Part shown: piece by piece, positions 5,211 to 64,000 of the stretch | Numbering within the stretch: the first letter of the stretch is position 1 | Layout of the letters: every line of letters begins with the position of its first letter | Assembly (NCBI GenBank): GCA_022495995.1 | Contig: JAFEMH010002100.1 | Location: forward strand, 186,001 to 250,000 | DNA length: 64,000 bases | Reading direction: 5' to 3' | Source of the DNA: Adenophora triphylla var. japonica | Taxonomy: Eukaryota; Streptophyta; Magnoliopsida; Asterales; Campanulaceae | Program-made: the position numbers and the translations under genes | The notes under the pieces: model-generated | Told to the model about the DNA's origin: nothing | Seen by the model: only the letters and a program-made list of their open reading frames with translations | Databases searched by the model: none

Positions 5211-5226
5211 AGCTAAGGAGGATGAT

Positions 5227-6626: not shown

Positions 6627-6639
6627 AACCGCAATAAAA

Positions 6640-11058: not shown

Positions 11059-11360
11059 GGTTGACAAAGCAAAAAGAGAAGAATAAACAAAGGAAGAAGG
11101 TCGGAGATGGAGTGATTTTACCTTGAAAGCGAACGGCGCCGTGGGCCAAAGGAGGTGAAAAGAAGATTTGAGAAGATAAGTTTTCTCAAGCGGTTAATAA
11201 AAAGGAAAAAGAATCCCTTTTCAAAATTAACTCTCTCCCCAACCGTTCATTTCATCGCCACGTCTCCCAAGAACGTTCCATCGGGCGAGTAACGGTTGGG
11301 TCATTAATTCAAAAGGAAAAACATTTTGCCTCTTCGCTTGCCTACATAGTCAAATGTTTT

Positions 11361-11371
11361 TGGGGACAAAT
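11361..11371 (+). promoter_or_regulatory. polypurine tract of Tat element
   Basis: TGGGGACAAAT immediately precedes the 3' LTR and fits a short plus-strand priming tract. Confidence 0.6.
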
Positions 11372-11977: not shown

Positions 11978-11982
11978 CTTAT

Positions 11983-12902
11983 ACCACGTTAGGTATAAGG
12001 AGCTTCAAATCCGCTTCGTAGATGGAGAGAGTGCGAGCTCACTGTGAAAAGCTTCAAGGCTGAACCGAATCAATGTGACGCTAATGGCTCTGAACAAGGA
12101 TCGGATTTAGGAGGTAAAATGACCTGAAATTGTTGGTGAATTGGTGGGACGGTGGTGGCTGTGATTGGCGCCGTTGGGTAGAGGAAGAGAACTCGGTGGA
12201 AGCGGTTGTTGATGAATGGGTTTAGAGATGGATGGAGAACGGGTTAGGTCTAGGTTGAGGAGCAATTGGGGAGAGGGATTGGGTTAGGTTTCTGGTGAGT
12301 ATGGCCGCCGGCGAATAGTTTAGAGAGAGAGGATTGGTGTTTGGGTCACCGGCGAACTGGTTTTGGGGGAGAACAGAGAACGGCGATGAAGGGGATTGAG
12401 GTAGAGGGAGGTATAACGGTGAGGAAGGGTTGAGGTGGAAGAGATGGGTGTTGTTTTGGGTTGGCGGCGAGGGAGACCAGGTGAAGGCTTTGGGGGAGAG
12501 CTCAACGAGGAACCAGAGAATGGTGAGATTGCGTTTAGTGAGAGAGTGACCAACGTTTAGAGAGAGAGAGAGAATACAGTGAGAGGCCCCCTTTTTACAA
12601 ATGAAAGAAATCCTTTATTTAACGTAATTTGGGAATGAATTAATATGTCGCACGACGGAAGGAAAATAACCGCTTTCCTTCTAGAACACTGCCTACCAGG
12701 TGGCAAAATCTGGACCCTTCCTGAGTAATTTCTTAAAGGTCCAAACTGCAAAATTCTTTCTAGGTCCTTCCTTAGCGAGAAACTTATAAAAAGCTCCCGG
12801 AAGTCTCGGAATGAACCGGAAATTTACCAAAACGCTCCCAAGCACACTTTATTGAGTAAAAGGAACTTTTATTAGGCCGCGAGTTGGATTGGGGTACTCA
12901 CA
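11983..12902 (-). repeat. LARD 3' LTR, proximal part (after nested Tat insertion)
   Basis: It continues the LTR broken at 2178 and aligns with 19163-20083. In element orientation the LTR begins at 12902 with TGTGAGTACCCC. The other LTR lacks about 13 bp just inside this end. Confidence 0.88.
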
Positions 12903-12914
12903 GAGCCCCTCGGC
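12903..12914 (-). promoter_or_regulatory. probable polypurine tract of LARD element
   Basis: On the minus strand GCCGAGGGGCTC lies directly before the 3' LTR start. It is purine-rich but interrupted by pyrimidines, so the assignment rests mainly on position. Confidence 0.45.
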
Positions 12915-13030
12915 AACGTCACTTATGGAAGAAGTGAGGTTGTCGATAAGAAGGATCCCAAGCCTAACGAGCAGCTGATGATATGGCAGATGGTTAATAG
13001 GGTTGGATGGCTGGACCTTTGGAGAAAGGA

Positions 13031-13073
13031 TTCCTACGTATCCCTAAAAGGGAATCAAGCCAAATTGTAGTTC
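13031..13073 (-). other. conserved CTACG/CGTAG structured motif, LARD copy near 3' LTR
   Basis: On the element strand: outer stem CTAC/GTAG, left bulge GGCTTGAT, inner stem TCCC/GGGA with loop TTTTA. A downstream hairpin CCTTT-CTCC-AAAGG follows on the same strand. The layout matches the copies at 15092-15138, 51790-51846, 55309-55368 and 63044-63110. It is the most diverged copy. Confidence 0.6.
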
Positions 13074-13078
13074 GAAAA

Positions 13079-13494
13079 TATAGGAATGAGCCTGAGGAGG
13101 TATAGGAACAAGCGTAACGAGGTATAGGAACAAGCCAAAAGAGGTATATGAACAAGCCTAAAAAGGCATAGGAACAAGCCTTGAGAGACATAGGAACAAG
13201 CCTTAAGAGACATAGGAACAAGCCTTAAGAGGTATAGGAACAAGCCTAAAGAGGTATAGGGACAAGCCTTAAGAGGTATAGGGACAAGCCTTAAGAGATA
13301 TAGGAACAAGCCTTAAGAGACATAGGAACAAGCCTAAAGAGACATAGGAACAAGCCTTAAGAGACATAGGAACAAGCCTTAAGAGACATAGGAACAAGCC
13401 TAAAGAGGTATAGGAACAAGCCTAAAGAGGTATAGGAACAAGCCTAAAAGGTATAGGAACAAGCCTAAAAAGTATAGGAACAAGCCTAAAGAGG
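13079..13494. repeat. 22-bp tandem repeat array
   Basis: About 19 units of a 22-bp repeat built around TAGGAACAAGCC, with variable tails (TTAAGAGACA, TAAAGAGGTA and similar). There are no unique spacers, so it is a minisatellite. Open frames across it on the minus strand are artefacts of the period (22 codons per three units). It lies about 180 bp inside the LARD internal region from the 3' LTR. Confidence 0.95.
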
Positions 13495-13690
13495 ATCGAG
13501 ATTAACTCAAAAGTATCGCGAGATGAACTTCAAGACTTTTCCGAGAAAGCAAACATAAGACAAGATGATTTGCAGTTGAAATGAGATATACTTTCATACC
13601 TGTGTTGTGCTTACCTGCAAGGGTTCTGCACACGAAGATCACTTGAAGCGATTGGCTGACTTTGGAAACATTTGCCGGGTAGAACACGAA

Positions 13691-13866
13691 CTCTGCTGTT
13701 GATATTACCGTTGCAAGATGGACTCTGCTGATGATTTGACGTTGCGAGACTGACATTGTTGATGATTTTGACGTTGCAAGATGGGTATTGCTGATGCTTT
13801 TCCATTGCAAGACGGATATTGCTGATAATTTTCCATTTCAAGACGGGATTTTGATGATGATTTTCC
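13691..13866. repeat. 31-32-bp imperfect tandem repeat, five to six units
   Basis: Units share the pattern TGCTGATGATTTT...TTGCAAGA. They start near 13691, 13722, 13753, 13785, 13816 and 13848, with 10-25% divergence between neighbours. Confidence 0.85.
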
Positions 13867-15091
13867 AACGAGGCTGATGAGCTTGACGAGCATTGCTTGG
13901 ATACTGAGGCAGCTAGGGCTCTTTCAAATGATGCTGATAAGTCTGAAGATGACGAGACCTATGAAGATAATAAAGGCAGAATATGCCACCTGCGGGATTT
14001 GAAATCTTTGTCCAGGTTATGATTTGAGGAGCAATCCTCACGATCAGATTATGATCACTTGATTATTGTACCCTGTGAGGGGAAAAACACAACACTACTA
14101 GGCACTTTGCATTTTATTCAATTATTGAGATTTTGCTTATGCATTATTAAATTCATTGCACGAGTCCATCTCGGCTGGGGATGAAAATGGAGTGAGGACT
14201 TTGTATGGCCTGACAAGCGAATATGTATGTAGCAATTATGCTATGATGGGATGACTGTGTATATATGATGTATGGGTCGAACCCTCTCCCATGAATTTGA
14301 GGAATGTATGAGTGACGGATGATATGGGGAAGCTAGGCAAGTCGGGGTGTACCCTGAGAGTGCAGATGGCAGCAGGTTGATTTGTTGCTGATAAGAACAA
14401 AGTGTGTCGCGCGCCTGAGGCAGCAAGCAGCAGAGAAAGTGCAGAGAATGATCCCGGCTTTGAAGAGATGACTAGGCGAAGCCCCAGTTGATAATGCAAA
14501 GCAAACCCGGAGGGAATCTGGAGAGCTTGAGAGGACAGCATAGCAAAGCCCCAGCTTGAAGAGATCCAATGCAGTCCCATTACAGGCAAAATCATCATGC
14601 GGCAAAGGGGGCACCCCATCATTTCAGACCTTAGTCAATCAGTCATAGACTTGGAAATATATACGTGCAGGGGCACATCTTTTGAAAAGTGGGAAATGAA
14701 TCCCGATCTTGCATGACATACTCGCTTATGGGTTTGACTCTTTTGAGAGAGTATAAGCACAACAAGGTGTGGAAAAGTGTATGGAAGCCCCTGCTGACAG
14801 AAAGACAGTGTTTGGCTCTATTATTCCTAGAATGTAGAAAGAGAAGACTTGTCGAGACACTTAAAAATTTGTCTTATTTGTGATGATCACAAAGCTACTT
14901 AAAACCCTTTATTGATGTTCGGGTCATTCAACCACCAAAGCTGATATGAACAAATATTTTTATCAATCCTGAGGAGAAAGCCCACTGATATCGAGAATCA
15001 AAACTCCGAAGGATGGAAGGTGTATGGGAATGGTCCTTGAGGAGACCGGATTTTCTGAGATCTGTTTGTGATTTCGACCGGACCAGTTATG
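13867..15091. other. LARD internal non-coding segment
   Basis: No homology to gag or pol is visible in any frame. Frames of up to 128 codons exist on the minus strand (around 14240-14620) but have no recognisable domain and overlap one another in different frames. Confidence 0.5.
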
Positions 15092-15138
15092 GTTGCCTAC
15101 GTTCCCCTTCTTGGGAGGAGCTCAGGTCGCCGTAGTTC
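15092..15138 (-). other. conserved CTACG/CGTAG structured motif, LARD 5'-side copy
   Basis: On the element strand: outer stem CTACG (plus 15131-15135) with CGTAG (15097-15101), bulge GCGACCTGAG, inner stem TCCTC/GGGGA with one G-U pair, then GGCAACC. A downstream hairpin ACCA-TAAC-TGGT follows near plus 15081-15093. Sequence and layout match the Tat/Ogre-type copies. Confidence 0.72.
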
Positions 15139-15535
15139 GGGCTTATCCCGATTGAAGAGAGAAGGAATGTGAAATTTCGAGATTTTGAGGACCTTTGAGG
15201 ATTTTGAGAATTGGAGAATTGAAGATCATGTCCCCTTGGAGTGTCCATGAAAGACACGGACGCGAAGCCCCAGTGGGACATTCGCGGCAAGTGTTTGTGG
15301 AGGAGAAATGAAATATGCTCACATGAAGTGCCAAATGAATGGATTGAATTTGCACAATCTTAGATTGATGATTTTGAACCAAGATAGATTAGATTCCACT
15401 TTAAGCAAGCAACAAAGCATTAATCTGATTTAGATCTCGAAGATATTAGAATGAAACTGCTATTCGGTAGGGACTGTAGCTGGGTTTCCGGGCTTCGATC
15501 GGCCATCGGGTGATTTGAAAAATTGATTGCATCAT

Positions 15536-15728
15536 GACCTCTTGAGATGAGAGGTCGGCTAGGCCTTTTACTGACTGAACCTCTAAAGATGAGAGGTTGG
15601 CTTGCAGGGATGTGTTTGGGAAATCTACGGCGAGGAAGATTGGTTGCCTCTAAGAATGAGAGGTCAAATTTTGCTTTGGCCAAAGGTAAGGGTATGGCAA
15701 TGGGAATATCCTCTAAAAGCGTGAGGAT
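15536..15728. repeat. series of four short hairpins with covarying stems
   Basis: 15536-15556 has stem GACCTC/GAGGTC; 15578-15598 has AACCTC/GAGGTT; 15646-15665 has GCCTC/GAGGT(C); 15708-15728 has ATCCTC/GAGGAT. The loops share TAAAGATGA-like sequence. Starts are 42, 68 and 62 bp apart. Related GAGGAT-TTAAC-ATCCT hairpins follow near 15863 and 15920. Confidence 0.75.
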
Positions 15729-16601
15729 GGTTTGGGATTAGTTGGTGGACTGCTGACGAGAGAAGATCCAAGCTATCGAGAACTTTTGCGAACTTTCAAG
15801 AATTCGGGCTCCTTTTGAACATTGGAGAGCTTTGGAGAGATCGAGGACTTTTGCTGAATGGTGAGGATTTAACATCCTTATTTTGGAAAGCCTCTTGAGG
15901 ATTCTTGCTGGATTGTGAGGATTTAACATCCTTCTTTTGATAACTTGGAAGGCCTCTTGAGGAGTTGAGGATTATCTTTGTCCTTCCTTCATGGCTTGGG
16001 TATTTTACGCACCGCCGACTCTCGAAGCTAATTTCTTGGCATTACTTGGACTTCTCTCGGCAAGGAGCAAATGTGATGGCTAAACAGGGTTTCAAATCAC
16101 GCCGATCTTGAAATGAAAGGGTATTGTTTAGTGAGGGTGAGGTAATGGCTTTCCTATGGGTGAAAGGTTTCAACCGCAATCCCTACCGGATGACCCAAAC
16201 GAGATTAAGTCTTCAGCTTGCTTAAGCTTACTTTGAGGAAGATCCATGCAAATTCATCGAGCAACGAAACGGTGAGGGCGAAGGAAGATATGTGAGCACA
16301 GGAGATGCGAGATGGGGAGTTGGTGAGCCCCAATTTGGGAAGGATATCAGTCGATTTTCTCGATCTGATTAATTTAAACATTAGTCACTTCAAAGCATTA
16401 GTCGGTGAGCAGCACAAGTGATCATTTGGAATAAGACCATTTCAATTGAGTGTAACACAGGTGTGCAAGTGATGTCTCGAGTCTAGCAAGAAAAGAAATA
16501 AAACTTTTATTACTGCAAAGCAAAAATTGGTCCAAAGCGGACTCGACAGACTCACGTCCGACATCAGACATTCTAGATCCTACGAGGACTGATTGACTGC
16601 A
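15729..16601. other. LARD internal non-coding segment
   Basis: It contains repeated GAGGATTTAACATCCTT (about 15863 and 15918) and CCTCTTGAGG inverted repeats. Nothing coding is recognisable. Confidence 0.45.
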
Positions 16602-17060
16602 TCAACTTCGGATGGGAGGAAAAGCATCGTTGACAGCGATGAGGCGAGGACCCTTCTCAATCTTTCTGTCCTTCACAAGTCGTCTCTCCTTAGCTTTCGT
16701 AATCTGATCAAGCAACCGGGCCTCCCACTCACGAGGAAAAATAGCTTCAAGGGTAGCTCGCAACTTTTTGATGGACACACCCTTTGTACTATGCGAACCC
16801 ATGGGCTACGAACCTCCAGACTGGTGGGCCATAATCTTCTCTGCAACGAGCATTTTGGATTCCGAATCAAATGGACGACCACTCGGGCACTTGAATTGCT
16901 TCCGCCTCGGGAATATGGACCAATGAGCGCCGGGAATGAGAGCACACACCCAACTTGCCGTAGCCTTGGAGCGGAAAGAGCATATAGGGTGGAGGATAGG
17001 AAACTTTGAGATGGTATGGGAGATGGGAGGAGTACGGAAGGAGATGGACTCGCGCAACAC
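16602..17060 (-). pseudogene. possible remnant of an Ogre-type ORF upstream of gag
   Basis: Two open segments (17060-16806 and 16802-16602) share a frame and are separated by a single TAG. The second contains KLRATLEAIFPREWEARL and KAKERRLVKDRKIEKGPR, with a protein-like composition unlike the surrounding low-complexity frames. It lies on the element's sense strand, 1.1-1.6 kb downstream of the PBS, where Ogre elements carry an extra ORF1. I do not recognise the family, so the ORF1 link is positional inference. Confidence 0.35.
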
Positions 17061-17770
17061 TTATTAGTGTTCAAGTAAAAATCGGTGTTTTTTTAAGTCC
17101 TATGAACGGTTGGGAAAGGCTAATCCTTTATTTCACGCAATCTAGATCTCGGGGGAACCTAGGGACACACCATCCACAAATACACCAAATGTGTTGAGTC
17201 AAAATTAATAATAGGCAATGATACCTAATCAAAACCGAAGCATTTATGGAACAGACTAGCAGCCCCAATTTCTGGAGAAATTCGGGCAGCATAACGGGTA
17301 TTCCTGAAGAAATTCAAGGAAAAATCCGGCATGACTTCTCGTCGGTGCACGTTGACAAAATGACATGATCTCTCATTAGAACATGCCGTGGGAACGACAT
17401 GTCCTTTCGTGAAACCATGTTGCAATGGCAACATGCCCACACATGCTAGGTTTTGGGATAGATACGAAAGCCTATTAAGAATTTTGAAACAATTCATTTT
17501 AGTGTATTTGAAAATGGCGTGTCAAAACCAACCGTTGGGTAAGGTTAAAAGTGTGGTGCCACCTATAACGCGCTAGGGGGATAGGTTTGACATTAGGCGC
17601 TCAAACGTAGGCGACATACATCACCGTCCGCGATGCCGTCAATCGCACCCGAGGGTTCTAGATCTACGTGATGTAGTGTGCGGATGACTATGTTCCTTTA
17701 TTTTTGAAAATGATTTTTGTTATTTTTTCTTTTTTATATTTTTTATTTGAAAAGGGTGATAAAGGAAAAA

Positions 17771-17790
17771 CAACACACACACACACACAC
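17771..17790. repeat. (AC)n microsatellite
   Basis: About ten CA/AC dinucleotides in the LARD leader region. Confidence 0.9.
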
Positions 17791-17889
17791 CCCACAGAGC
17801 ACAATAGTCAAATGATCAAGAATTTTATCATGGGGACTGCCCCACAATCACAGCTGAACTAGAAACTAAACCTGCATAGTGGCCACTTC

Positions 17890-17934
17890 TGTCGCGTGAC
17901 ACAGGACTGGTGAGGCCAGTTATGTCGCGTGACA
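17890..17934. repeat. paired-palindrome cassette in LARD leader
   Basis: TGTCGCGTGACA occurs twice, at 17890-17901 and 17923-17934 (33 bp start to start). The spacer CAGGACTGG...GGCCAGT resembles the spacer in the LTR cassette (1575-1620). It lies about 250 bp inside the element from the PBS. Confidence 0.75.
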
Positions 17935-18179
17935 GAAGGAGTCACCTTTCCAGAATCTGAACAAAAGGACCAGAAACAGCCCCAGCCTCCAAGCATCAAA
18001 ACAATGTCTCAAGCCTCAAGCACAACAAATAGGAAGCAAGGAAGGGGAGGAAATAAAGCAAAGCAATAAAATGCATTTTAGGCACATAGAATGTCACACA
18101 ACCAAACACACACAAATGAATGAAATGGACGTTGAACAAGCACGAAAGTTTGACCCACTTTTGAAAACCAAGTTACAAA

Positions 18180-18197
18180 TCCCCAGCGGAGTTGCCA
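18180..18197 (-). promoter_or_regulatory. primer-binding site, Arg-tRNA type
   Basis: On the minus strand TGGCAACTCCGCTGGGGA starts one base after the LTR end. It differs by one base from TGGCGACTCCGCTGGGGA, the complement of a plant Arg-tRNA (ACG) 3' end as I recall it. It sets the element's orientation and is the PBS class used by Ogre. Confidence 0.85.
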
Positions 18198-18558
18198 CTG
18201 AATGAACGCTCGCCGAAAAAATAAAAATAGGGAGTCGCCACGCCGTTTTAAAGGAAACATTGAAAACCTTTGAAATGAGAAAATGGGTTCGGGGGTCATG
18301 TTACGTGTTGGGAAGAACCGAGAGTTCACTCAACACGCCTCGTCTGTAGACGAGTCTTTCTATCGTTCAACATCAAAATCATTCATAAGTGTGTGCAATT
18401 GTGTGAGACAAAATATGTATAAAAATGCATTTTAATGCTTTATTGATAAACTGCGAGGAATACAACTTGTGAGCCACTTATTTTGGGGGGCCACGTCCCG
18501 ATTACAACGAGGCAAACGGATTACAAATGAAAATGGACCTGCTGCAGTTGGCTATGTA

Positions 18559-18604
18559 TGTCGCCCGACACAGGACCATGAATGGCCAGTTGTGTCGTGG
18601 AACA
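18559..18604. repeat. paired-palindrome cassette in LARD 5' LTR
   Basis: TGTCGCCCGACA (18559-18570) pairs with the diverged TGTCGTGGAACA (18593-18604), matching 1575-1620 in the other LTR. Confidence 0.65.
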
Positions 18605-19731
18605 TACTACGCCATATGCAGAGGTTTACAACTAGGTTGATTACAGAGACAAGACAATATCAACAACAAGGTTAACAAAAATGGAATTAACAGCAACAAC
18701 GAGATTGAAACAAGGCAACAACGAGATTGAAATAATGGAAATGTATAATTGTAACGAGACTATAACAATACCAATCTATTCGGTTCTAGCCTGATGAACA
18801 ATACCAAATGCGACAAAACCCATGAATCAACGAGGAGAGAGAGAAATGGAATTTGCATCAACGAGGAGAGCAATTTAGAGATCACAGGGGGAGGAAAACA
18901 ACACTCAGATGAGTGGTGAATATGGATGATTCACACTCATCTTCGTGTCTAAACCACAAATAACATGAACTGAAACACTTGTGTAAATAAAGCACCAAAA
19001 TCAATACATGACTATCACCAGTAAACACCAAGGCAGAGCAACATCTAATTACAGATCAACGAATTATTCGTGAAGAACAGGGCAATGGCATGGATGATTA
19101 AACCAGAAGAGAAATGAAGAATGAGATTTAGAGATTACCCTTGGAATATCCACAATCCTTATACCACGTTAGGTATAAGGAGCTTCAAATCCGCTTCGTA
19201 GATGGAGAGAGTGCGAGCTCACTGTGAAAAGCTTCAAGGCTGAACCGAATCAATGTGACGCTAATGGCTCTGAACAAGGATCGGATTTAGGAGGTAAAAT
19301 GACCTGAAATTGTTGGTGAATTGGTGGGAAAGTGGTGGCTGTGATTGGCGCCGTTGGGTAGAGGAAGAGAACTCGGTGGAAGCGTTTGTTGATGAATGGG
19401 TTTAGAGATGGATAGAGAACGGGTTAGGTCTAGGTTGAGGAGCAATTGGGGAGAGAGATTGGGTTAGGTTTCTGGTGAGTATGGCCGCCGGCGAATAGTG
19501 AGAGAGCATTGGTGTTTGGGTCACCGGCGAACTGGTTTTGGGGGAGAACGGAGAACGGCGATGAAGGGGATTGAGGTAGAGGGAGGTATAACGGTGAGGA
19601 AGGGTTGAGGTGGAAGAGATGGGTGTTGTTTTGGGTTGGCGGCGAGGGAGACCAGGTGAAGGCTTTGGGGGAGAGCTCAACGAGGAACCAGAGAATGGTG
19701 AGATTGCGTTTAGTGAGAGAGTGACCAACTT

Positions 19732-19732
<1 letters not shown>

Positions 19733-19765
<33 letters not shown>
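19733..19765. repeat. (AG)n microsatellite
   Basis: About 16 dinucleotides; the other LTR has only about eight at the same place (about 12560-12575), so it expanded after the LTRs separated. Confidence 0.9.
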
Positions 19766-19768
<3 letters not shown>

Positions 19769-20088
19769 CAGTGAGAGAGGCCCCCTTTTTACAAATGAAA
19801 GAAATCCTTTATTTAACGTAATTTGGGAATGAATTAATATGTCGCACGACGGAAGGAAAATAACTGATTTCCTTCTAGAATACTGCCTGTCAGGTTGCGA
19901 AATCTGGACCCTTCCTGGGTAATTCCTTAAAGGTCCAAACTGCAAAATTATTTCTAGGTCCTTCCTTAGCGAGAAACTTATAAAAAGCTCCCGAAAGTCT
20001 CGGAATGAAACGGAAATTTACCAAAATGCTCCCACGCGCACTTTATTGAGTAAAAGGCACTTTTATTAGGTCGCGAGTTTACACCTTT

Positions 20089-50376: not shown

Positions 50377-51355
50377 TGTAGACACCCCATTATGAACCCA
50401 TCGGAGCACATTTATACCGCTCTAAGTCTCGCCTTGAGTCAAGAAGTATAAATCCACCATTTCGTTATGTTTCGTTAAGTTTTGACTAACGACCGTTAGT
50501 TTAAGGCTAAACTGCATACGAAATAACGAGGGAAGGGTAGAATTGTCCACAAACTTCCTTATCTCACGCGGAATAGCGTGTCTCACGTGAGATAAAGGAG
50601 TTCTGCAAACATGCAGATGGCAGTTTCCTTGTCGATTTCAACCTCTTTCGGGATAAAACTCTATCCATCCGGCTAGCCAATGAAGTTTGGATTCTGGAAC
50701 CTTCCTAAGGTGTTTGATCTCATCTTCAACACCTCTCCAACACCTATAAATACCTGAAGACTTTCAGTATTTTGGATCCCAGTCTTTTCAAGTCAAAACC
50801 CCCCACATTTACTGGTTTCTCTCCATGAAAGATTCCTGTAAATCACCCCTAAAATCACTTAAAGTTTGTTTGTCAACCTTGTTGATAAACAAACATCGAA
50901 GCTCGAATCAAGGACTGAGGCAAAGCTCTGTCCGAATCAAGGTTCAACTCTAAACTTGAGTCGAAACTCTGTCTGAATTACTTCACGCAAGGTAATCCTC
51001 CTTTCCCTTTCTAATTGATTATTAGAATAGTATAAATACATTGAATCTAGGATCAGCCTAGAGCCTCCCCAAATCTTGGGGATGGTCTCGAAGCAATCGA
51101 TCCTACATTCCGTTTAACCTCGTTAAATGGATCTTTATTTTATTTATTATTTAAAATATTTTCCGTCTTTGAAAACCTCTCTCTTTTTAGCAAGACCGAT
51201 CTCCGGATTGAGTGGAATGGGTGCTCCTTGACCTTCCCATTCCATAACCTAAGCCCCGAACCCAAAATCTATTTTCAAATGGTTTTTTTTATGTTTCCAA
51301 ACGAATAATATAGGTGGCGACTAAAAAAGATGTTAAAAACTCGTGCATCGCTACA
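50377..51355 (+). repeat. Tat/Ogre-type B1 5' LTR
   Basis: 979 bp, TGTAGACACCCC to GCTACA. The TATA-like box CTATAAATAC is at 50743-50752. A palindrome pair is at 50559-50592, about 150 bp upstream. Confidence 0.92.
50743..50752 (+). promoter_or_regulatory. TATA box of B1 LTR
   Basis: CTATAAATAC, conserved at 54272-54281 in the B2 LTR. Confidence 0.65.
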
Positions 51356-51789: not shown

Positions 51790-51846
51790 GGAACTACGAC
51801 GGCCTGAGTCTTCCTAAATTGGGAGAAACGTATGCAACCACTTGGT
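51790..51846 (+). other. conserved CTACG/CGTAG structured motif, B1 leader
   Basis: Outer stem CTACG (51794-51798) with CGTAT (51829-51833), bulge ACGGCCTGAGT, inner stem CTTCC/GGGAG (51810-51814, 51821-51825) and a following hairpin ACCA-CT-TGGT (51837-51846). Confidence 0.78.
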
Positions 51847-52515
51847 GCGGCCACTATCTGTTTTTTTTTTTTTAATTTTCAAAAAAAAAATCTCTATTTT
51901 ATCTATCACCTAGATTGACTATCACACACGCGCACTCATGTTATAACTGTTATTACACTGCATACCCCGATTAACCCGGGACCCACACTAAGGACGGATG
52001 ACGGTAATCATCTAGTCTCCTGTCTCTCCAAAGTTGGATCATCCCACTCCGCGTATTCAATCCGTCTAGATTGTCATATCGCGGGGAGCCTAGCCTTCCA
52101 GCCCTGCATCGCCACATATCATGTAGATTGTCTTTTTAGGATCACTCTGTGACCGGTCGGTTTTGACTTGGTAATCTCTCTTATTTTTGACAAAAATAAA
52201 GCCATGTAAAATTGACCATAAAGAAGGATTCGGAAAAGTCCCTTAGGAAAAAGAAAAAGTCCCTTCGAAAATGTCCCTTCGAAATGACCCTTTCAGAAGT
52301 CCCTTAAAGAAATAAAAAATAAAATCCTTCTTGAAAAATGATTTTACATGGCTTTATTTTACAATGAATGGTCAATTACCGAGTCCCTAGGTTTGGTTTT
52401 GAATTACGTATACCTGTAAGATTTACCTAGGATACTAGATAGAAAACGGATCTTTGTCCGTCCGACCATGAATTTAGGAAATAAAAAGAGGAAAAATCCA
52501 TCTCTCGGAATGGTT

Positions 52516-53905: not shown

Positions 53906-54088
53906 TGTAGACACCCCATTCTGAACACATCGGATCATACTTATACCGCTCTAAGTCTCGCTTTGAGTCAAGAAGTAGAAATCCACCATTTCGTCATGTT
54001 TCGTTAAGTTTTGACTAACCACCGTTAGTTTGGGACTAAACTGCCTACGAGATAACGAGGAAAGGGCAAAACTGTCCACAGGAGCAAT

Positions 54089-54121
54089 ATCTCGCCGCGA
54101 GATGGCGTGTCTCGCACGAGA
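54089..54121. repeat. palindrome pair in B2 LTR
   Basis: ATCTCGCCGCGAGAT and TCTCGCACGAGA; the equivalent B1 pair at 50559-50592 is ATCTCACGCGGAATAGCGTG then TCTCACGTGAGA. Confidence 0.8.
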
Positions 54122-54271
54122 TATCCCCCTTCTGCAGATTGCAAATGACAGTTTCCTCGTCGATTTCAACCTCTTTCCAGGATAAAACTTTATCCATCCG
54201 GCCAGCCAATGAGATTGGGAGTCCAGAACCTTCTGATAGGGTTTTACCTCTCCACTTCTTCATATCCATCC

Positions 54272-54281
54272 CCTATAAATA
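54272..54281 (+). promoter_or_regulatory. TATA box of B2 LTR
   Basis: CTATAAATAC, conserved with B1. Confidence 0.65.
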
Positions 54282-54889
54282 CTTGGTGACTTCCAAGGTT
54301 CAAGGGATCCCCCGTCCACAATTCACACACATTTCGTTGGCTTCTTTCCCTGAAAGGATCCTACGAAATCACCCTAAAACTCACCTCATAGTTTGTTTGT
54401 CAACCTTGTTGATAAACAAACATCAAGCTCCAAGTCAAGGACCGAGGCGAAGCTCTGTCCATATCAAGAGTCGATTCTAAACTTGAGTCAAAACTCTGCC
54501 CAAATCACCTCATGCCAGGTAACCCCTAAATCCCTTTCTAATTGATTGTTAGAGTGGTATAAGTCCATAGAATCTAGGATCGGCCTAGAGCCTCTCCAAA
54601 TCATGGAGACGGTCTCGAAGCAATCGATCCTACATTCCGTTTAACCCCGTTAAATGGACCTTTGTTTGTAATATTTAAAAATCGTTTTTTTCTCTTCTTT
54701 TGAAAACCTCTCCTTTCTTTAGCAAGACCGATCTCCGAATTGGGTGAAATGGATGCTCCTTGACCTACCCATTTCATAACCTAAGCCCCGAACCCAAATC
54801 TTTCAAAAATGTTTTTCTATGTTTCCAATCGAATAATATAGGTGGCGACTCAAAACAAAAAGATAAAATTCTTTCTCACAACGCTACAG

Positions 54890-54907
54890 TGGCGACTCCG
54901 CTGGGGA
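54890..54907 (+). promoter_or_regulatory. B2 primer-binding site, Arg-tRNA type
   Basis: TGGCGACTCCGCTGGGGA, one base after the LTR, is a full-length match to the recalled Arg-tRNA (ACG) complement. Confidence 0.88.
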
Positions 54908-54993
54908 CTTAAAATTAAGAGGCTTAAACTTGCGTCAAAATTAAAAGAGAGGTTTTCAAAAAAAAAAATCGATTTTCTGCTCTCAGATGAGGC

Positions 54994-55308: not shown

Positions 55309-55368
55309 GGAACTACGACGGCCTGAGTCTTCCTAATTTGGGAGAAACGTAGGCAACCACTTGGTGCG
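55309..55368 (+). other. conserved CTACG/CGTAG structured motif, B2 leader
   Basis: Outer stem CTACG (55313-55317) with CGTAG (55348-55352), bulge ACGGCCTGAGT, inner stem CTTCC (55329-55333) with GGGAG (55340-55344) and downstream hairpin ACCA-CT-TGGT. It is 400 bp downstream of the PBS. Confidence 0.82.
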
Positions 55369-55750
55369 GCCACTATCTGTTTTCCTTTTGATTTTCAAAA
55401 AAAATCTCTATTTTTATCTATCACCTAGATTGACTATTACACACGCGCACTCATATTATAACTGTCATTGCACTGCATACCCTCTATAAACCTGGGACCC
55501 ACACTAAGGACGGATGACGGTAACCACCTAGTCGCCGGTCTCTCCGAAGTTGGACAATCCCACTCCGCGTATTCAATCCACTTAGATTGTCATATCGCGG
55601 GGAGCCTAGCCTTCCAGCCCTGCATCGCCACATTCTCATGTAGATTGACTTTTTAGGATCACTCCGTGACCGGTCGGTTTTGACTCGGTGATCTTTTCTT
55701 GTTTTTGACCAAAACAAAGCCATGCAAAATTGACAATAAAGAAGGATTCG

Positions 55751-56161: not shown

Positions 56162-57560
56162 ATGTCCGACATCGACAACATTCCGGGTAATGAGACTCTG
56201 TCCGAAAACAACCACAAACTTCTGGAAGAAGCCAATGATCGCCTAGAAGTGCAAGCTTCCCAAATCCACACTCTCGTGGAAGAAATTCAAGAGCTTAGGG
56301 CTGCACTAGCCAAAAAAGAAAAGAAGAAGAAAAATGATTCTTCCTCCGGAGAAGAGGAGTCATACACTAAAAGGGCCAAGGGTCGCCGCAAAAGCAAAAG
56401 CAAGAAAAAGAAGTACGAGTCTAGCTCGTCATCTTCCTCATCTGACAATGAAAGCTACACATCCAAGAAAGAAAGCAAGGGGGAAAGCAAGAATGAACCC
56501 CTTACCATGGCCATGCTAGGAAAGAAACTTGCATCCCTCGATGTAAGTAAGGGAGCCTAGCTCTCTATTGATTACGAAACCCTTCGTCAGTCCATGTCAA
56601 AGCTTCCTAGAAAGTACAAAACACCCGACATTGCAAAATTCAATGGTACCACCTGTCCCAAATCACATTTGGAGACCTACTCTTGGGCCATGCTACCTAT
56701 GGGTGTTGATGACAACCTGTTAGCCCAATTCTTTCCACAAACTCTCGATGGTGCCGTTAGAGATTGGTACATGACCCTTCCACTCTCAACAAGACTAGAC
56801 TGGCCACTCGCTAGTTGTACTTTCCAAAAGCAATATGAGGACAACTCCACTTATCGCACCACTAGAAGGGATCTTGAGCAAACCAAGCAGCTTCCGAACG
56901 AATCCTTCACAGATTTTGTCAAAAGGTGGAAAACCAAACTGACTGAAATCGTTGATAGGCCAAGCCTAGACGAACAAATTCACATCCTCATACAATGCCT
57001 TAGAGAGGAATATCAAGACAAGCTAGCCGGCAACTACTTTCCTAGCTTCGCCGAACTTCACAAGTCGGGCATACGGTTAGATGACCTCATCAAACAGAAA
57101 AGGGAAGCCAAGAAAGAAAGTGGATTCCGTTACAACAAGAGCTCTTCTTCCTCCTCCAATCCCAAGGATGCATCTGGCAATGCCATTGTCTTCAATCATC
57201 CCAGAAATGGTAAGTACTCTGCGGTACCTCCACCACAAAAGAAGAAGAAAGATAGACATTATGACAAGCTTGAAGGAATCACCCAAGAAGAACTCTTTGA
57301 AGTGCTTGTCAAGAACGGGAAAATCAAACCAAGAGAAGGTGGACCTCCAAAGAAAGATCTTCCTGCCAACCATGCTTATCATCTCTTCTGCAAGTACCAC
57401 AACTTCACCGGTCATGACACCAACTCCTGCTTCCACTTGAAAGACGTCCTCCAAGATTTGTTTGACGATAAAGAGATAGGGTTACCTAATGTTGTTACTA
57501 ATCCTTTGCCAAACAATGAGGTCAATCTGATAGAGATAGAAAGTAGCTTCGAGGACCCTA
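56162..57560 (+). pseudogene. Tat/Ogre-type Gag (B2)
   Basis: The ATG at 56162 (MSDIDNIPGNETLSENN) was chosen because the following frame is open and coiled-coil-like (LEVQASQIHTLVEEIQELRA). A Lys-rich and Ser-rich tract follows, then one TAG at 56558-56560 where B1 has Ser. The capsid runs 56594-57080: FNGTTCPKSHLETYSWAMLP, RDWYMTLPLSTRLDWPL, TDFVKRWKTKLTEIVDRPSL. A Cys/His cluster CKYHNFTGHDTNSCFHLK at about 57390-57443 is the Tat-type zinc knuckle. Gag and protease share one frame. Confidence 0.92.
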
Positions 57561-59134
57561 CTCGTCTAGCCACAATTGTGGACGAGAGCCCTCTTGAATT
57601 TAATGAATCTTTTTTCTGTTATATGATGTCTTGGGAGGAAATCTTAGAACAAAAGGGAAAAGGGTCTAAAACAGTCAACCTACTCACACGATCCGGTCGT
57701 GTGATCACCAACAAAGACCCAAGGGATGAAAATCCTCCAAAACAAGCCAAAGCCTCATTGCCAAACGAACTGGAGGACCCTCTCTTAACTCAGTTAAAGA
57801 AGACACAAGCAAACATCTCGATTTGGGATCTCATAGGAGCATCTCACAAGCACCGTGAGATGTTGAAAAAGGCATTGGCTCAAATGACCATTTCCTCTGA
57901 AGCAACACCCGAAGAGCTCACTCAAATGATTGGCCAAGTGCAATTTGGTAACGTCATCACTTTCACTGACTTGGACCTCCCATCCTATGGGAACAATCAT
58001 CATGAGGCCCTTAACATAACTGCTAAGGTGAATGAGTACCGAATGCCACACATTTTGGTTGACAATGGTTCTGCAATAAATGTCCTCCCAAAGAAAGCCT
58101 TATCATCATTAAGCCTCACCCACAAAGACCTCAAGCCATCTGGGCATACTGTAAGGGGATACGATTGTACTGTTAGAACCGCTCTGGGATCAGTTATGAT
58201 ACCTGTAGAAATGGGGCAAGTCACTATGAGCATCGAATTTCAAGTCATCGACATTCCGGCATCCTTCAACTTACTGCTTGGTCGCCCTTGGCTACACGAC
58301 ATAGGGGGTGTGCCCTCCTCCCTGCACCAATGCATCAAGTTCAGACACAACAATACGATAGTCACCATACACGGAGAGATGGTTACTGCTAGTCCTATCC
58401 TCGAAGTACAACATAGCAATTCTGATTTCCTGTTCAGTGGTTTTGAGATCGAGAAGGAAAGCACTGTGAATGTCATAGAAACTTACAACGAAAATGACTA
58501 CTCCAAGGCACTTTGGTTTTCCGGAAGCCTTCCTGTCTGGAGAATGATGCTAGCAAAAGGGTACTTTCCTGGATTAGGGCTCAGAAAGCACTTACAAGGG
58601 ATAACGGAACCACCACCGGTCCCCCCACTTCACACAAAGCATGGCCTAGGATACATCATCTCCATCCACGATGAGGATGACGAAGAAGAGTGGGGCTTCA
58701 CTCAAACCAAGTGGGAAGGAACCGCATACAAAAGCTACGACGACCCAAAGCCCAAGAATTGTAACCTCAAGCCATATCGAACGACACTCAATGGCTACTT
58801 TGTTCGAGAAGGGGAAAGTATTCCCTACTTTATCTTTTCAGAACCATGGACTGATGATAAAGGAAAGCGCCAATCGGGCTTTGAAATCTTCAGCGACTGC
58901 GATGCTTCTCCAGATGAAACAGAATCCGTCCCACTAATCCCTAATGATTTGTGGGGCACGAAGGCAGAAATGACAAGTGAATGGGACTTTGTGTTGGGAG
59001 AAGACATCTTTGCGGCAGTTCAAGACCTATGCCAATTAGAAGACAAACGGCCGGATCCATGCAATCTCCAAGGGGGACGCTCCAACTACTGCGATTACAC
59101 GAGGGCGATACGAAATGTGATGAGCCAATTCTAA
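57561..59134 (+). pseudogene. Tat/Ogre-type protease with G-patch (B2)
   Basis: Same frame as Gag. The protease active site is ILVDNGSAINVLPKKAL at about 58055, with VDNGS in place of VDTGS, and the C-terminal block is FNLLLGRPWLHDIGGVPSSL (about 58266). A G-patch-like segment follows (LAKGYFPGLGLRKHLQG, about 58550-58600), a known feature of some Tat/Ogre proteases. An acidic spacer with DEDDEEEWG leads to a frameshift near 59100, after which reading continues in the next frame. Confidence 0.88.
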
Positions 59135-60777
59135 ACTGGCACATCACCGGAGGACCAGTTGTTGATGAAGACTTCATGATCAAAGAGCTTGGTTGCACTC
59201 CCCATCCCCGCAGGAAGATAGGCCCTGTAACTTTTATATTAGAAGCAGGCTCCACCTCCGATGAACTCACTCAAGAGGAAGTCGAGGCGGTGGCTGAACA
59301 TGTATTCCCTTACTTCCTTAATGAAAACTTTGTTCTTTCCGAGTACCCTGAGATTGCTAACATCGTGAATGATGAATTAACTAATAATAATCAACATAAC
59401 GAACACGTTAATAATGAATCATACGACGAGATAGATCAAGAAAACGAACAAATCTTAAAAGAATTAGCTAAGCAAGTAGGTTGTTGTGGAAAAAATGGCC
59501 CCGTTGACAACGAGGAAATGCAAACGGTTAACCTTGGGACAACGGAAGACCCCAGAGAAACAAAGGTCGGCAGCTTCTTCAAGGGGGAAGACAGAGAAAC
59601 CTTGACGCAGCTCCTCAGAGAATATGTCGACGTCTTCGCTTGGTCCTACAGAGATATGCCAGGTTGAATCGATCGGTTGTAAAACACAAGATACCGCTGC
59701 TACCCAACGCCAAGCCAGTCAAGCAGAAACTATGCAAAATCAAACCGGAATGGTCAATGCAAGTGAAAGAGGAAATCATGAAACTCTTGAAGGTAGGGTT
59801 CATCAAAGTGATTGAATATCCAGAATGGCTAGCAAACACGGTGCAAGTAGCCAAGTCGAACGGGAAAATACGAGTCTGTGTTGATTTCAGAGACTTGAAC
59901 AAGGCATCCCCTAAAGATGACTTCCCGCTACCAAACATAGACATGTTGGTCGATGCCACAGCAGCATACGAAGTCCGCTCATTCGTCGACGGTTTTGCGA
60001 GGGTATAACCAAATCCTCACGGCGAGAGGAGGATCAAGCACAAACAAAGATTCACCACACCTTGGGAACGTTACGCTACACCTGGTCATGCCGTTTGGTC
60101 TCAAGAACGCCAGGGCTACTTACCAAAGAGCGATCACGACACTATTCCACGACATGATCCACAAGGAAATAGAGGTATATGTGAACGACATGATTATTCA
60201 CTCAAAAGGGACAGATGGTCAAGACTTGAAGATCTCGAGAAAATTCTTCAATCGACTGAGACAGCACAAGATGAGGCTCAACCCCGCCAAATGCTCATTC
60301 GGAGTGGTCAAAGGGAAAGTCTTAGGGTACATGGTCACAGAGCGTGGTATAGAAGCAGATCCCGCCAAGATAAAAGCCATTACAGACATGCCTCCACCCA
60401 GAACACAGAAAGAAGTAAAGGGATTCATGGGCAGAATTCAATATATCAGTCGATTCATCAATCAACTGACTACAATGTGCGACCCCATCTTCAAGCTACT
60501 TAAGAAAAATGCACCTCAAGAGTGGACCGAAGAATGTCAAGAGGCATTCGAGGAAGTTAAGCACTACTTGACTTCCCCACCTATCCTGGTTCCACCGCAC
60601 AAGGAGAAGCCCTTGAAGTTGTACCTCACGGTTACGGACAACGCATTAGGGGCTATGCTCGCTCAAGAACAGCCTGCCTCGCACACAGAGAATGCCATCT
60701 ATTTCGTCAGCCGCAGATTCCAAGGCAGCGAAATCAACTACTCTCCACTCGAAAAGTCCTGCGTTGCTCTCGTCTAG
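59100..60777 (+). pseudogene. Tat/Ogre-type RT and RNase H (B2), broken, catalytic Asp lost
   Basis: The spacer ends VDVFAWSYRDMPG (59667), then a one-base shift to 59640-60008: WLANTVQVAKSNGKIRVCVD and FRDLNKASPKDDFPLPNIDM. A second shift near 59990 is followed by LVMPFGLKNARATYQRAI and the catalytic motif YVNDMIIHSKG at about 60178; the family has YVDD, so the first Asp is Asn. Connection (FGVVKGKVLGYMVTERGIEA) and RNase H (LKLYLTVTDNALGAMLAQEQ, ENAIYFVSRRF) follow to a TAG at 60775-60777. Reading continues in frame at 60778. Confidence 0.92.
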
Positions 60778-62820
60778 TTATCACAAAGGCTAAAGCACTA
60801 TATGGAAGCCTTCCCAGTCCGTCTCATTGCAAAAATGGATCCACTGAAATATATCATAGACAAATCAAATTTGTCTTCGAGACTGGCCAAATGGTATTTC
60901 TTGCTCGCGGGGTATGATATCACTTACGTCACTCAGAAATCCGCCAGGGGGAGTGTATTCGCAGATCAGTTGGCTGAATTTCCTTGCGACGAAGTGAAGG
61001 GGGAAGACCCGCGATTCCCTGATGAGGACATCCTGAGTATAGAAGAAAATAAGTGGCAATTATTTTTCGATGGCGCAGCCAACAAGAGAGGGTTCGGCAT
61101 TGGAATGTTATTGGTAGACCCTAACGACATCTACACTCCACTGGCAGTACGTCTTGACTTTGACGCCACCAACAACACCGCAGAATACGAGGCTTGCATA
61201 GCGGGGCTTGAGGCAGCCCTAGAACGCAACGTGACTGAACTCGAGGTATTCGGGGATTCCCAATTGATCATCAATCAGACATTGAAGATGTGGAGGGTCC
61301 AAGATCCAACCCTTCAAAGATACAGTGCCCATCTCCAAGAGTTGGCGCAACAATTTCAAGAGGTCTCATTCCACTACCTCCCCAGAGACAAAAATCGGTT
61401 TGCGGACGTGTTAGCCACGCTTGCTTCTTTGGTCGAAATCCCTAAAGGAAAAGCAGTCAAACCCTTCAAAATAACACGGCGTACAACTCCTGCATACTGC
61501 GCCGTTATAGATCTCCATGACTGCAAAGACAAATGGTTATCCGAATGTGCCGCTGTTGGGAACTCCGAAGAGAAACCATGGTACCATGACATTTGGAATT
61601 TCATCCAAGATGGAACCATACCGCCGGAGACAGACCCGAAGACTCAGATCGCCCTTAAGAGTTTGGCCACCAATTACGTCATCACCGCTGGCCGTCTATT
61701 CAAGAAACATTCCCAAGGAAACCTCCTTTGTGCCACCGAGGAAGAGGCCCAAGAAATAATGGACCATGTTCATCAAGGCATATGTGGAACCCACATGAGC
61801 GGAAACATGCTCGCCAAAAAGATCATCAGACAAGGGTACTTTTGGCTGACCATGGAAGCCGACTGTACCAAAATGGTCAAGAAGTGCCATAAGTGTCAGA
61901 TACACGCCAATCTCCAGCATGCACCACCTTCCTTGCTGTACCCTATGACTTCTCCTTGGCCGTTCTCTACGTGGGGGATAAACGTGATTGGAAAGGTCAC
62001 ACCCGTAGGAGCCAACGGACACTGCTTCGTCCTAGTAGCCATCGACTATTTCACTAAATGGGTCGAGGCCGCCTCTTACAAAATTCTGAATGCCAGAAAG
62101 GTTGCAAAATTCATCAAGCACAACATCATCTGCCGGTATGGGGTTCCGCAAGAGATGATATCCGATAATGGGTCTCACTTCGAGAAGGAAACCGATCGCC
62201 TACTGACTGAGTACAAAATCACGAGACACAAGTCGTCTCCTTACAGGCCTCAAACGAACGGAGCAGTTGAAGCCGCGAACAAAAGAATCGAGACTATCAT
62301 CAGAAAAATGGCGGTCACTGGAAAAGACTGGCCCGACAAGCTACCATTCGCACTATGGGGATACCGCACTTCAGTCCGGACAGCTACAGGAGAGACTCCC
62401 TACGCCCTCACATTCGGAATGGAGGCTGTCTTACCGATAGAATTGGAAATACCATCACTACGGGTTCTCCTAGAAAACCAATTGAATGAAGTCGACTGGC
62501 TAGGAAGCAGATACGAAGAGTTGGCCCTGTTGGACGAAAGAAGGTTGAAAGCAGCCGAACACACTCAAGCTTACCAAAGAAGAATGGCAAGAGCTTTCAA
62601 CAAAAAGGTCAAGACAAGGAACATCAGAGTAGGTGACCTGGTTCTCCGTGAGCACCGTCCTGGACCTTTCAACCCGCTAGGCAAGTGGGGACCAAGATGG
62701 ATAGGACCCTACATTGTGAAGAAGATATTCTCTGGGGGAGCCCTTCAGCTGGTAGACTTAGACGGAGAATAACTACCGAAGCCGGTCAACATGGACAAGC
62801 TCAAGAAGTACTTCGCGTGA
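60778..62820 (+). pseudogene. Tat/Ogre-type second RNase H and integrase (B2), catalytic Asp lost
   Basis: Open from 60802 to 62772. End of RNase H 1, then RNase H 2: WQLFFDGAANKRGFGIGMLL, NNTAEYEACIAGLEAALE and EVFGDSQLIINQ. Integrase: HQGICGTHMSGNMLAKK and CHKCQIHANL (HHCC); core WGINVIGKVTPV (about 61975), where the first catalytic Asp is Asn, MISDNGSHFEKE with the second Asp, and PQTNGAVEAANKRIETII with the Glu. The C-terminal region has VGDLVLREHRP and KWGPRWIGPYIV. A TAA at 62770 precedes the natural end PKPVNMDKLKKYFA-stop at 62820. Confidence 0.93.
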
Positions 62821-63043: not shown

Positions 63044-63110
63044 AAACTACGTTAGACCTGAGCCTCTTATTTAATTGCTGTAAAAGAGGAACGTAGGCAG
63101 CCTTCGGGTT
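63044..63110 (+). other. conserved CTACG/CGTAG structured motif, B2 3' copy
   Basis: The strongest copy: outer stem CTACGTT (63047-63053) with AACGTAG (63090-63096), bulge AGACCTGAG, perfect inner stem CCTCTT (63063-63068) with AAGAGG (63084-63089), and downstream AGCC-TTCG-GGTT, a UUCG tetraloop hairpin. Confidence 0.85.
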
Positions 63111-63289
63111 CGGTCTAATCAAATAAGTAAATCTACTTTTGTCCTTTTATTAATCGAATGCATTTTTATTAATGACAAAAGGGAAATCCTAACCACAACG
63201 ACTAATTTGCTAAGCTAACAATCTTGAAAAAAATACTAATAAAACCAAACTATTGATCTATCAAAGCAATCTCTTGGTACTCCTAAGAT

Positions 63290-64000
63290 CTAGCCTTTCA
63301 TTGACTTGGTAGGCCGGCGGACATGGTCACCACCGTCTTCGCGGTCCTTCTTGCGCTTTGAGCCCCTCAAAGCAGAGCATCCCTCAAGACGATCAAAGAC
63401 AGACTCCGAAAGCCTCTTGAAGACATTGGGCCTATCCAAAGCTTGCGTCTTTCCAGGCATCCCTTTGCCTCGCCTCTCGTACCAATCCCCGTCGAGAAAA
63501 TCCTGAGTTGGATCAGTTCGTACATTAGCAGGATCAGACTGAGCCTCGCTCCTTCGCAAGATACTGCTGGCCACAAAAGAATCCCCTAGCAGTGAAAGCC
63601 GCAGATCATCAATCTTCTCCGCACTAGGGTGATCGGTATGAAAGAACCAATCCAAATACTTGTCAGACAAGAAGATGCTTGCATTAAAGGTCCGAAGGTT
63701 CGACCAGCGGTCCCGACTAGTTCCTTCACCCCATGCTTGAGCTAGCGCCTGCGCGAACTCTACACCAATATAAGACACTTCACGAGAAGCTCCCTCGAAC
63801 AGATAAGTATCCTGCTGCTGACTAAGCTGACGGAGCACCCGTTTGGGAAAATAAAAGGAAGAATCTCGCAAACCCGGAAGAACAACCCTGTCAAAACCCT
63901 TGGTATTGGCAACATACTTGTTCAACCTCCAATAAGGTGGACACCAAAGAATGTCAGCAGTTTCGGTCTTCGCAATCAACTCAGCCCATTCATCCGCGGA
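63290..64000 (-). CDS. antisense ORF of Tat/Ogre-type element, plant-mobile-domain-like (partial)
   Basis: An open minus-strand frame enters from the right edge (DEWAELIAKTETADILWCP) and runs uninterrupted to a stop at 63290, 236 codons visible. Conserved-looking blocks include YVANTKGFDRVVLPGLRDSS, YFPKRVLRQLSQQQDTYLFE and FAQALAQAWGEG; the C-terminus is very basic (RGSKRKKDREDGGDHVRRPT), a possible nuclear signal. Position and character fit the antisense ORFs of Tat elements that resemble plant mobile domain proteins (PF10536; family assigned from memory). It has no stop or shift here, unlike gag-pol of the same element. The start codon lies outside. Confidence 0.72.
   Translation of the reverse strand, partial: SADEWAELIAKTETADILWCPPYWRLNKYVANTKGFDRVVLPGLRDSSFYFPKRVLRQLSQQQDTYLFEGASREVSYIGVEFAQALAQAWGEGTSRDRWSNLRTFNASIFLSDKYLDWFFHTDHPSAEKIDDLRLSLLGDSFVASSILRRSEAQSDPANVRTDPTQDFLDGDWYERRGKGMPGKTQALDRPNVFKRLSESVFDRLEGCSALRGSKRKKDREDGGDHVRRPTKSMKG

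Follow-up and report, generated by a model that had tools for sequence, protein, structure and literature searches.

A short motif with covarying helices in Tat LTR retrotransposons, a candidate recognition signal on their genomic RNA

Little is known about the way in which plant LTR retrotransposons select their own RNA, and a short, foldable, repeated motif is a concrete object on which the choice can be tested. Such a motif, 62 to 83 letters in size, occurs at 55310 and elsewhere in a 64,000 bp stretch of contig JAFEMH010002100.1 of Adenophora triphylla var. japonica (the window), raising the questions of whether it is kept as a folded RNA and what the fold may do. Our main reading is that the motif is a conserved folded RNA of Ogre/Retand-type Tat elements and serves as a cis-acting recognition signal on the genomic RNA; we put the probability of this at about one half.

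Elements that carry the motif

The motif copies of the window lie in two plus-strand elements, B1 and B2, and in an outer element on the minus strand (Table 1). The LTRs of B2 are 98% alike and its 5′ LTR is followed by GTGGCGACTCCGCTGGGGA, a putative tRNA-type primer binding site (PBS). According to PMC6317226, Ogre/Retand elements of the Tat clade are recognised by a second RNase H placed between RNase H and integrase, and the domain order of the B2 pol frames agrees with the Tat/Ogre host family named in the first-pass annotation. Thus, judged by sequence, the classification of the motif hosts as Tat (Ogre/Retand-type) LTR retrotransposons holds up. The protease match in the B2 gag frame is weak (PF13650, 20.5 bits, below the Pfam cut-off of 24.3), and the B2 gag region showed no CCHC zinc knuckle. 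B1 is interrupted within gag by B2. The outer minus-strand element has a binding site of the same kind as that of B2; its internal region yielded no gag or pol match when B2 gag, two pieces of B2 pol and nine pol proteins of Tat elements were used as tblastn queries (E 1e-4). No motif copy was found in the nested Tat-like element at the mismatch limits used.

Besides an extra open frame, Tat elements have an extended non-coding 3′ region in which tandem repeats are frequent (PMC6317226, PMC7004042). Both traits appear to be represented in the window, the first by 280 open antisense codons that lie between B2 pol and its 3′ LTR (63293-64132, the last part beyond the window) and the second by a 22-base tandem array of 19 copies beside motif copy D in the outer element (13079-13494). 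The antisense stretch is perhaps the extra frame typical of Tat elements; no Pfam match was found for its 236 codons inside the window (63293-64000). By eye, GGAA(T)CAAGCC (plus strand) is common to the array unit and the TGA/P2 part of copy D, as though the array had arisen from a motif copy. Arrays in Tat 3′ UTRs are described as satellite seeds (PMC7004042).

Two further repeats were noted in these elements. Palindromes or near-palindromes of 12 bases such as TCTCGCGCGAGA recur in the LTRs, leaders and 3′ UTR of B1 and B2; in RNA form these could fold into a short stem whose GCGC-type loop is complementary to itself and might act as a dimer contact. The sequence GTGGCGACTC, which makes up half of the primer binding site (the first), is found again a little before the LTR end.

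Table 1. Positions of the elements, motif copies and associated features (window coordinates unless another sequence is named).
Feature	Position	Strand	Remarks
Nested Tat-like element	2177-11980	+	inserted in LTR of outer element; pol matches 4788-8442
Outer element, 3′ LTR	12885-11970 and 2178-1215	-	split by nested element
Outer element, internal region	12886..18198	-	holds motif copies C and D
Outer element, 5′ LTR	18199..20079	-	bounds by self-similarity
B1 5′ LTR	50377..51355	+	end read from binding-site position
B2 5′ LTR	53906..54888	+	starts TGTAGACACC, ends GCTACA
B2 primer binding site	54889..54909	+	GTGGCGACTCCGCTGGGGACT
B2 gag frame	56561..59131	+	PF03732, 34.4 bits
B2 pol frames	59941..62769	+	order RT, RNase H, additional RNase H (PF13456), integrase
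B2 3′ LTR	L103:4712-5692 (window coordinates 66712-67692)		beyond window; 97.97% identical to 5′ LTR, 984 columns
Motif copy A	55310..55371	+	leader of B2; 421 bases after PBS start
Copy A, 5′ half	GAA; P1a 55313-55317; P4a 55320-55323; TGAG 55324-55327	+	
Copy A, middle	P2 55328-55333/55340-55345; AA; P1b 55348-55352; GCA	+	
Copy A, 3′ half	P3 55356-55359/55362-55365; GC; P4b 55368-55371	+	
Motif copy G	51791..51852	+	leader of B1; helices as in copy A
Motif copy B	63044..63118	+	B2 3′ UTR, ~270 bases past pol stop
Motif copy C	15075..15138	-	internal region of outer element
Motif copy D	13008..13073	-	starts 162 bases before PPT/3′ LTR junction of outer element
TCTCGCGCGAGA-type palindromes	50581, 51477, 52517, 52537, 54110, 55016, 62988		
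GTGGCGACTC recurrences	B2 54842-54851; outer element 18232 (minus); L009:3231		
Contig L009	NZ_QPKJ02000028.1, motif at 2827		4160-base contig, Solirubrobacter assembly
Contig L013	JAFUBK010000065.1		contig of roe deer MAG with bacterial genes; motif on foreign-looking end

Motif copies and their pairing

Direct reading of the letters bears out five window copies of the RNA-like motif, three on the plus strand (51791, 55310 and 63044) and two on the minus strand (15138 and 13073). The strand of the two minus-strand copies was missing from the first-pass annotation. The motif head CTACG-N3..6-CCTGA occurs four times in the window versus 0.24 expected, and a count of four was reached by 0 of 100 shuffles.

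For pairing tests we used six copies, four from the window and one each from contigs L009 and L013; the 51791 copy was omitted as a near-duplicate of 55310. MAFFT put the last helix of L009 and L013 out of register, so helices were assigned copy by copy. In the inner hairpin, P2, all 24 outer cells are paired, a result reached by 1 of 720 strand permutations (real order included), which strongly supports the earlier claim that this stem changes in compensating ways. The same claim for the following hairpin, P3, is weakly supported, with 17 of 18 cells paired and 120 of 720 permutations reaching this value, which is not significant on six copies.

A further helix, P4, was missed by the first-pass annotation. 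It joins the letters just before TGA[G/T] to those that follow P3 and a two-letter joint ending in C, and was seen in every copy assigned by hand (n = 7). In the window it reads GGCC/GGCC (55310), TTAGACC/GGTCTAA (63044), CGACC/GGTCG (15138) and TGGCT/AGCCA (13073); in the two contigs it reads TGGACTT/AAGTCCA (L009) and TGGCCTT/AAGGCCG, with one G-U pair (L013). The 13073 copy had been described as diverged, yet P4 is intact there. All 24 P4 cells of the six copies are paired, as in 2 of 720 permutations (real order included), P4 having first been noticed on the very copies used to test it. In an anchored comparison the summed P4 pairing was 34.5 versus a mean of 23.3 (maximum 29) with partners swapped, and was reached by 0 of 265 derangements; with the downstream letters shuffled the mean was 17.1, and 0 of 20000 shuffles reached 34.5. 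As P4 encloses P2 and P3, the part that covaries forms a three-way junction. Its joint letters, TGA[G/T], [A/T]ACGTAGGCA and NC, are nearly invariant among the studied copies.

Folded without pseudoknots, single copies do not reach unusually good energies (z +0.39 to -2.59). L009 then forms P1, the outer helix; L013, 63044 and 13073 form P4 wholly or largely; and 55310 and 15138 form neither cleanly. Single-strand folding of this kind is blind to a knot.

Covariation in a larger set

We parsed 85 copies and placed P4b, the 3′ strand of P4, by reference to P3 and the joint rather than by complementarity; the parser required a C two bases past the P3 end. At least L108:9458, L135 and L140 were parsed in a wrong register and kept, which lowers the counts, and L107 (at a stretch end), L132 (lacking the GAACTACG start) and L177 were left out. 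Among 61 distinct cores, 242 of 305 P4 cells are paired (shuffle mean 192.3), as are 227 of 244 in P2 (mean 199.9) and 171 of 183 in P3 (mean 162.5), each value being reached by 0 of 2000 strand shuffles. Across 15 families, 11 of which are single copies, some decayed or in a wrong register, the counts are 43/75 for P4 (mean 31.2; 0/2000 shuffles), 55/60 for P2 (mean 48.4; 0/2000) and 37/45 for P3 (mean 33.3; 47/2000).

Strand shuffles ignore relatedness, and nearly all copies come from one species. This concern is countered most simply by seven different four-letter P4 cores (GGCC, GACC, GGCT, GGTC, ACTT, CCTT and AGCT), each of which faces its own complement, AGCT with one G-U pair. When partners are slid by one or two columns, the paired share falls for every helix, from 242/305 to at most 95/244 for P4; at a shift of -1, however, 154/183 P2 cells are still paired. 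When all column pairs were ranked by a score for pairing and change, two P2 pairs came first. Only P2 stood out there, along with one P3 pair among distinct cores, and no P4 pair was in the top 20.

At least four P4 pairs are formed in 64 of the 85 copies; the other 21 have three or fewer, as dead copies would. TGAG goes with AA before CGTAG in 54 copies and TGAT with TA in 31, combinations that are fixed in the patterns behind most genome copies. Where both letters were left free, at least two exceptions to this rule were seen among the ~100 matches listed. P2 has three to nine pairs in most parsed copies, and its loop varies widely in length and letters.

These data bear on the alternative that the copies are conserved through recent shared ancestry and that they pair by chance or because of a repeat at the DNA level. 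The copies are indeed related and nearly all of one genome, but pairing is lost on strand swaps between copies, loops and helices change while pairing stays, and the contaminant contigs L009 and L013 obey the same rules; we therefore give this alternative hardly any credence.

The proposal that selection acts on RNA structure and not on protein is upheld in that P2 and P4 stay paired through changes on both sides, and these paired changes span several element families and the two contigs of other sources. An overlapping coding frame was considered as an explanation for the conservation. The motif core contains TGA and TAG, window copies are found outside the gag-pol frames, and stops close all three sense frames in 43 of the 85 copies, two frames in 38 and fewer in 4.

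The outer helix

The first-pass annotation had all three of its helices covary, which fails for P1: CTACG/CGTAG shows no compensating change. Across the six copies and 51791 it is invariant but for two broken pairs, one in 51791 (CGTAT) and one in 13073 (CTACA). Copies beginning GAACTACA occur at 643 places, with the compensating T in [A/T]ATGTAGG in 5 of the ~100 matches listed, which is no sign of P1 compensation. Since P1 hardly varies and does so without compensating change, the case for it is the complementarity of two nearly invariant stretches. It is nevertheless likely that CTACG pairs with CGTAG in the joint between P2 and P3, which would give a pseudoknot.

If P1 forms, the strand order of the motif is that of the hepatitis-delta ribozyme, in which a helix surrounds one hairpin, another hairpin follows, and a second helix knots both. 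Ribozymes of this type have a short, fixed inner hairpin with a conserved loop. The motif could accordingly be a self-cleaving RNA of this kind, for which its strand order and the C before the 3′ strand of P4 in the seven hand-assigned copies would speak; the 85-copy parser demanded this C, and the larger set therefore gives no independent count of it. We regard self-cleavage as very improbable. A short fixed inner hairpin with a conserved loop was not found in the parsed copies, the inner hairpin and loop being free in length. Conservation extends to the letters just before P1, although a cut upstream would not require it; three cuts would ruin the genomic RNA; and no Rfam ribozyme model matches. 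Core letters, hairpin sizes and joints differ from those of the hepatitis-delta ribozyme, and the sequence gives no sign of catalysis.

The hammerhead ribozyme, whose core letters are CUGANGA, GAAA and NUH, was also considered and rejected, as the motif has TGA[G/T], [A/T]ACGTAGGCA and NC instead and there is no Rfam match.

Position along the elements

Copies of the type of copy A start 404-435 bases after the PBS start at all 11 loci in which this was mapped (two in the window, eight in L095-L102 and one in L106). At the other end, copies lie 124 (B2, L106), 153 (L122), 154 (L115), 162 (outer element) and 203 (L108) bases before the PPT/LTR junction. B2 carries the motif three times, in the leader, after pol and before the 3′ LTR, and the position of its 3′ LTR places the 63044 copy in the 3′ UTR of the same element. 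The start of the third copy, L103:4579 (window coordinate 66579), lies 133 bases upstream of the 3′ LTR. P4 has partly decayed in this copy, which belongs to those with three or fewer P4 pairs; 0 pairs were counted from the TGA side, and ATGG is still opposite CCAT. In B1, the 3′ copy (L103:8549) is 135 bases before the 3′ LTR and has the P4 ATGGTC/GACCAT. In L108, L115 and L122 a second copy lies 177-268 bases further upstream.

The search for PBS and PPT was restricted to the strand that carries the motif; the orientation of B1, B2 and the outer element is also given by their LTRs together with frames or binding site. L107 and L122:9639 were not placed for want of a landmark, and 63044 was placed through L103. 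The mapped elements carry their copies on the sense strand, in the leader and the 3′ UTR.

In an alignment of 3′ ends from four unlike families, conservation is largely confined to the motif joints and the letters that run up to the LTR; GCCGAGGGG stands just before the LTR in three of six sequences and is near-identical in the others. Between the B1 and B2 leaders, 60 of 62 motif letters and 795 of 930 others are identical, but 40 of 929 leader windows of equal length match as well as the motif, so this comparison alone is weak.

In another conceivable role, the 3′ copies would aid RNase H in producing the plus-strand primer at the PPT, with the leader copy acting likewise near the PBS. Copies lie 124-203 bases before the PPT in several families, and structures near the PPT have been proposed as RNase H guides in Ty1 and Sireviruses (PMC2829016). 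We consider this role quite unlikely, as the distance to the PPT is not fixed, the 63044 copy is ~3.7 kb from it, and second copies occur 177-268 bases upstream in L108, L115 and L122.

Abundance and occurrence elsewhere

We searched the assembly from which the window comes (2.48 Gb, 8432 contigs). The pattern ACTACG-N2..9-ACCTGAG-N8..38-AACGTAGGC occurs at 21,542 places and ACTACG-N2..9-TGAT-N8..38-TACGTAGGC at 2,995, which include the 48 places of a TTTGAT version. Together, the TGAG and TGAT patterns make 24,537 places in this one assembly, and reversed control patterns gave 0 places in it each time. A 101-base query around 55310 gave 40 scored matches at 99-100% identity, of 685 first-look candidates. 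In a blind sample of 20 stretches of 10 kb, eight exact-core copies were found in four stretches; six of the seven that were parsed form four or five P4 pairs. In the remaining one, L108:9458, the parser register is wrong, and inspection shows four P4 pairs in a shifted register. Two-mismatch matches in L103, L107, L108, L109, L116 and L122 were taken for chance.

Among contigs of prokaryote genomes there were six matches, of which L009 and L013 fit. L009 has an LTR start-like TGTAGACATCC near 72 and a binding site, GGCGACTCCACTGGGGAT, near 3515. It reads as a plant LTR element with the motif apparently inside a long LTR, the second LTR being absent from the contig. L013 is most simply a chimera with plant DNA. 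Both would be plant DNA in bacterial assemblies, one a contaminant scaffold and the other a chimeric contig. L010, L011 and L012 (mutually alike) and L014 were set aside by eye.

In viral contigs, a first pattern scan gave six matches that are phage-like or chance (reading frames were checked for L001 alone), and a second gave two copies of one unrelated sequence; a pol search confirmed no plant element there. A viral profile search kept 80 of 108 matches, all of which lie within the RNase H stretch at 26-38% identity and were rejected. Ten plasmid records gave weak matches of <60% identity and were likewise discarded.

Known RNA families

With Rfam 15 at the gathering score there were 0 matches in the window, L009 and L013, in line, as far as Rfam 15 goes, with the earlier statement that the motif belongs to no named RNA family. 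A permissive run gave chance-like matches near 55310, at E 8.9-9.9. The permissive matches to Dictyostelium SRP, in one of six sources and then in three of five (best E 0.00012), were judged spurious because a single strand aligned and every base-pair partner was missing. A description of the motif was not found in the main texts searched, few of them from subscription journals, nor was the element sequence found in the paper texts in which it was sought. Similar repeat sequences presumably exist in plants.

Proposed role

The first-pass annotation had offered packaging, dimerisation, translation and strand transfer as inferred roles. We favour, in this order, recognition for packaging or early replication, export or stability, help at the PPT and, last, catalysis. 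A recognition role is suggested because the motif is kept at the RNA level, lies in untranslated parts, is present more than once per genomic RNA, and is kept by an element without detectable proteins. Location in untranslated ends and retention by a non-coding derivative, here the one coding-poor element examined, are traits of a packaging signal. In the mechanism we propose, P4 closes a three-way junction with the hairpins P2, which is strongly supported, and P3, which is weakly supported, and the upstream CTACG would pair with CGTAG inside the junction to form a pseudoknot. The fold would most probably be bound by Gag or by another element-encoded or host protein, and the bound fold could mark the genomic RNA for encapsidation or replication. 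Coding-poor elements with the fold might use the proteins of intact elements. Gag binding and a need for the motif in encapsidation are predictions of this model. In Ty3, the best studied Ty3/gypsy element, RNA localisation and packaging need both UTRs and POL (PMC11381356).

An RNA stability or nuclear export element, as in the Evade ENE or the transport elements of mouse IAP and MusD, is the strongest competitor, although we think it unlikely. ENE and double ENE elements take up poly(A) in a U-rich internal loop, and no loop of this type was found in the parsed copies by inspection or with Rfam, which has no such match. Copies are present in 3′ UTRs, as this role would have it, but they also occur in leaders. 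Some Ogre elements have introns, so that unspliced RNA must leave the nucleus (PMC12786077), and Evade has in its 3′ UTR an ENE that increases mobility as well as RNA stability (PMC12501189). According to a 2025 review, the export of plant LTR-element RNA has yet to be studied directly, and there is no direct evidence in plants that decapping supplies the substrates for packaging (PMC12786077).

If the motif is a recognition signal, it may, more tentatively, be a clade-wide identity mark: a pseudoknotted tag at the leader and 3′ end that links or marks both ends of the RNA and may rank among the most abundant structured RNAs of plants, elements without genes surviving through retention of the tag alone. 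The motif suggests what a gene-less element must keep, and it is a marker for Tat 3′ ends that are otherwise hard to align. Its 24,537 places would be rich data for testing pseudoknot covariation.

Comparison with known systems

A survey of structured RNAs in plants (Sack et al., 2025; PMC12218528) resembles this study in being a covariation-based search. It searched near and inside genes and reports 16 candidates there with modest covariation, whereas the motif lies in retrotransposons. In the main text of that paper the words transposon and pseudoknot are absent; an overlap of its Brassica-trans with the motif is conceivable.

Among plant LTR elements, the motifs of Sireviruses are also short and kept in vastly divergent elements, some of them just before the 3′ LTR (PMC2829016). 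The Sirevirus motifs differ from the Tat motif in belonging to Ty1/copia elements and in being palindromic LTR boxes, an inverted repeat or copies of the PPT. The ENE of Evade is, like the motif, a structured stretch close to the 3′ end of the RNA of a plant LTR retrotransposon, and has a demonstrated effect on mobility (PMC12501189). The ENE forms a triple helix with the poly(A) tail, whereas the Tat motif is without the U-rich loop and occurs also in the leader.

The leader and UTR elements of Ty1 and Ty3 are likewise folded, partly pseudoknotted parts of LTR retrotransposon genomic RNA. The likeness drawn here is in the kind of element. Unlike these elements, the Tat motif occurs in short copies, several to one RNA, and is common to several diverged families.
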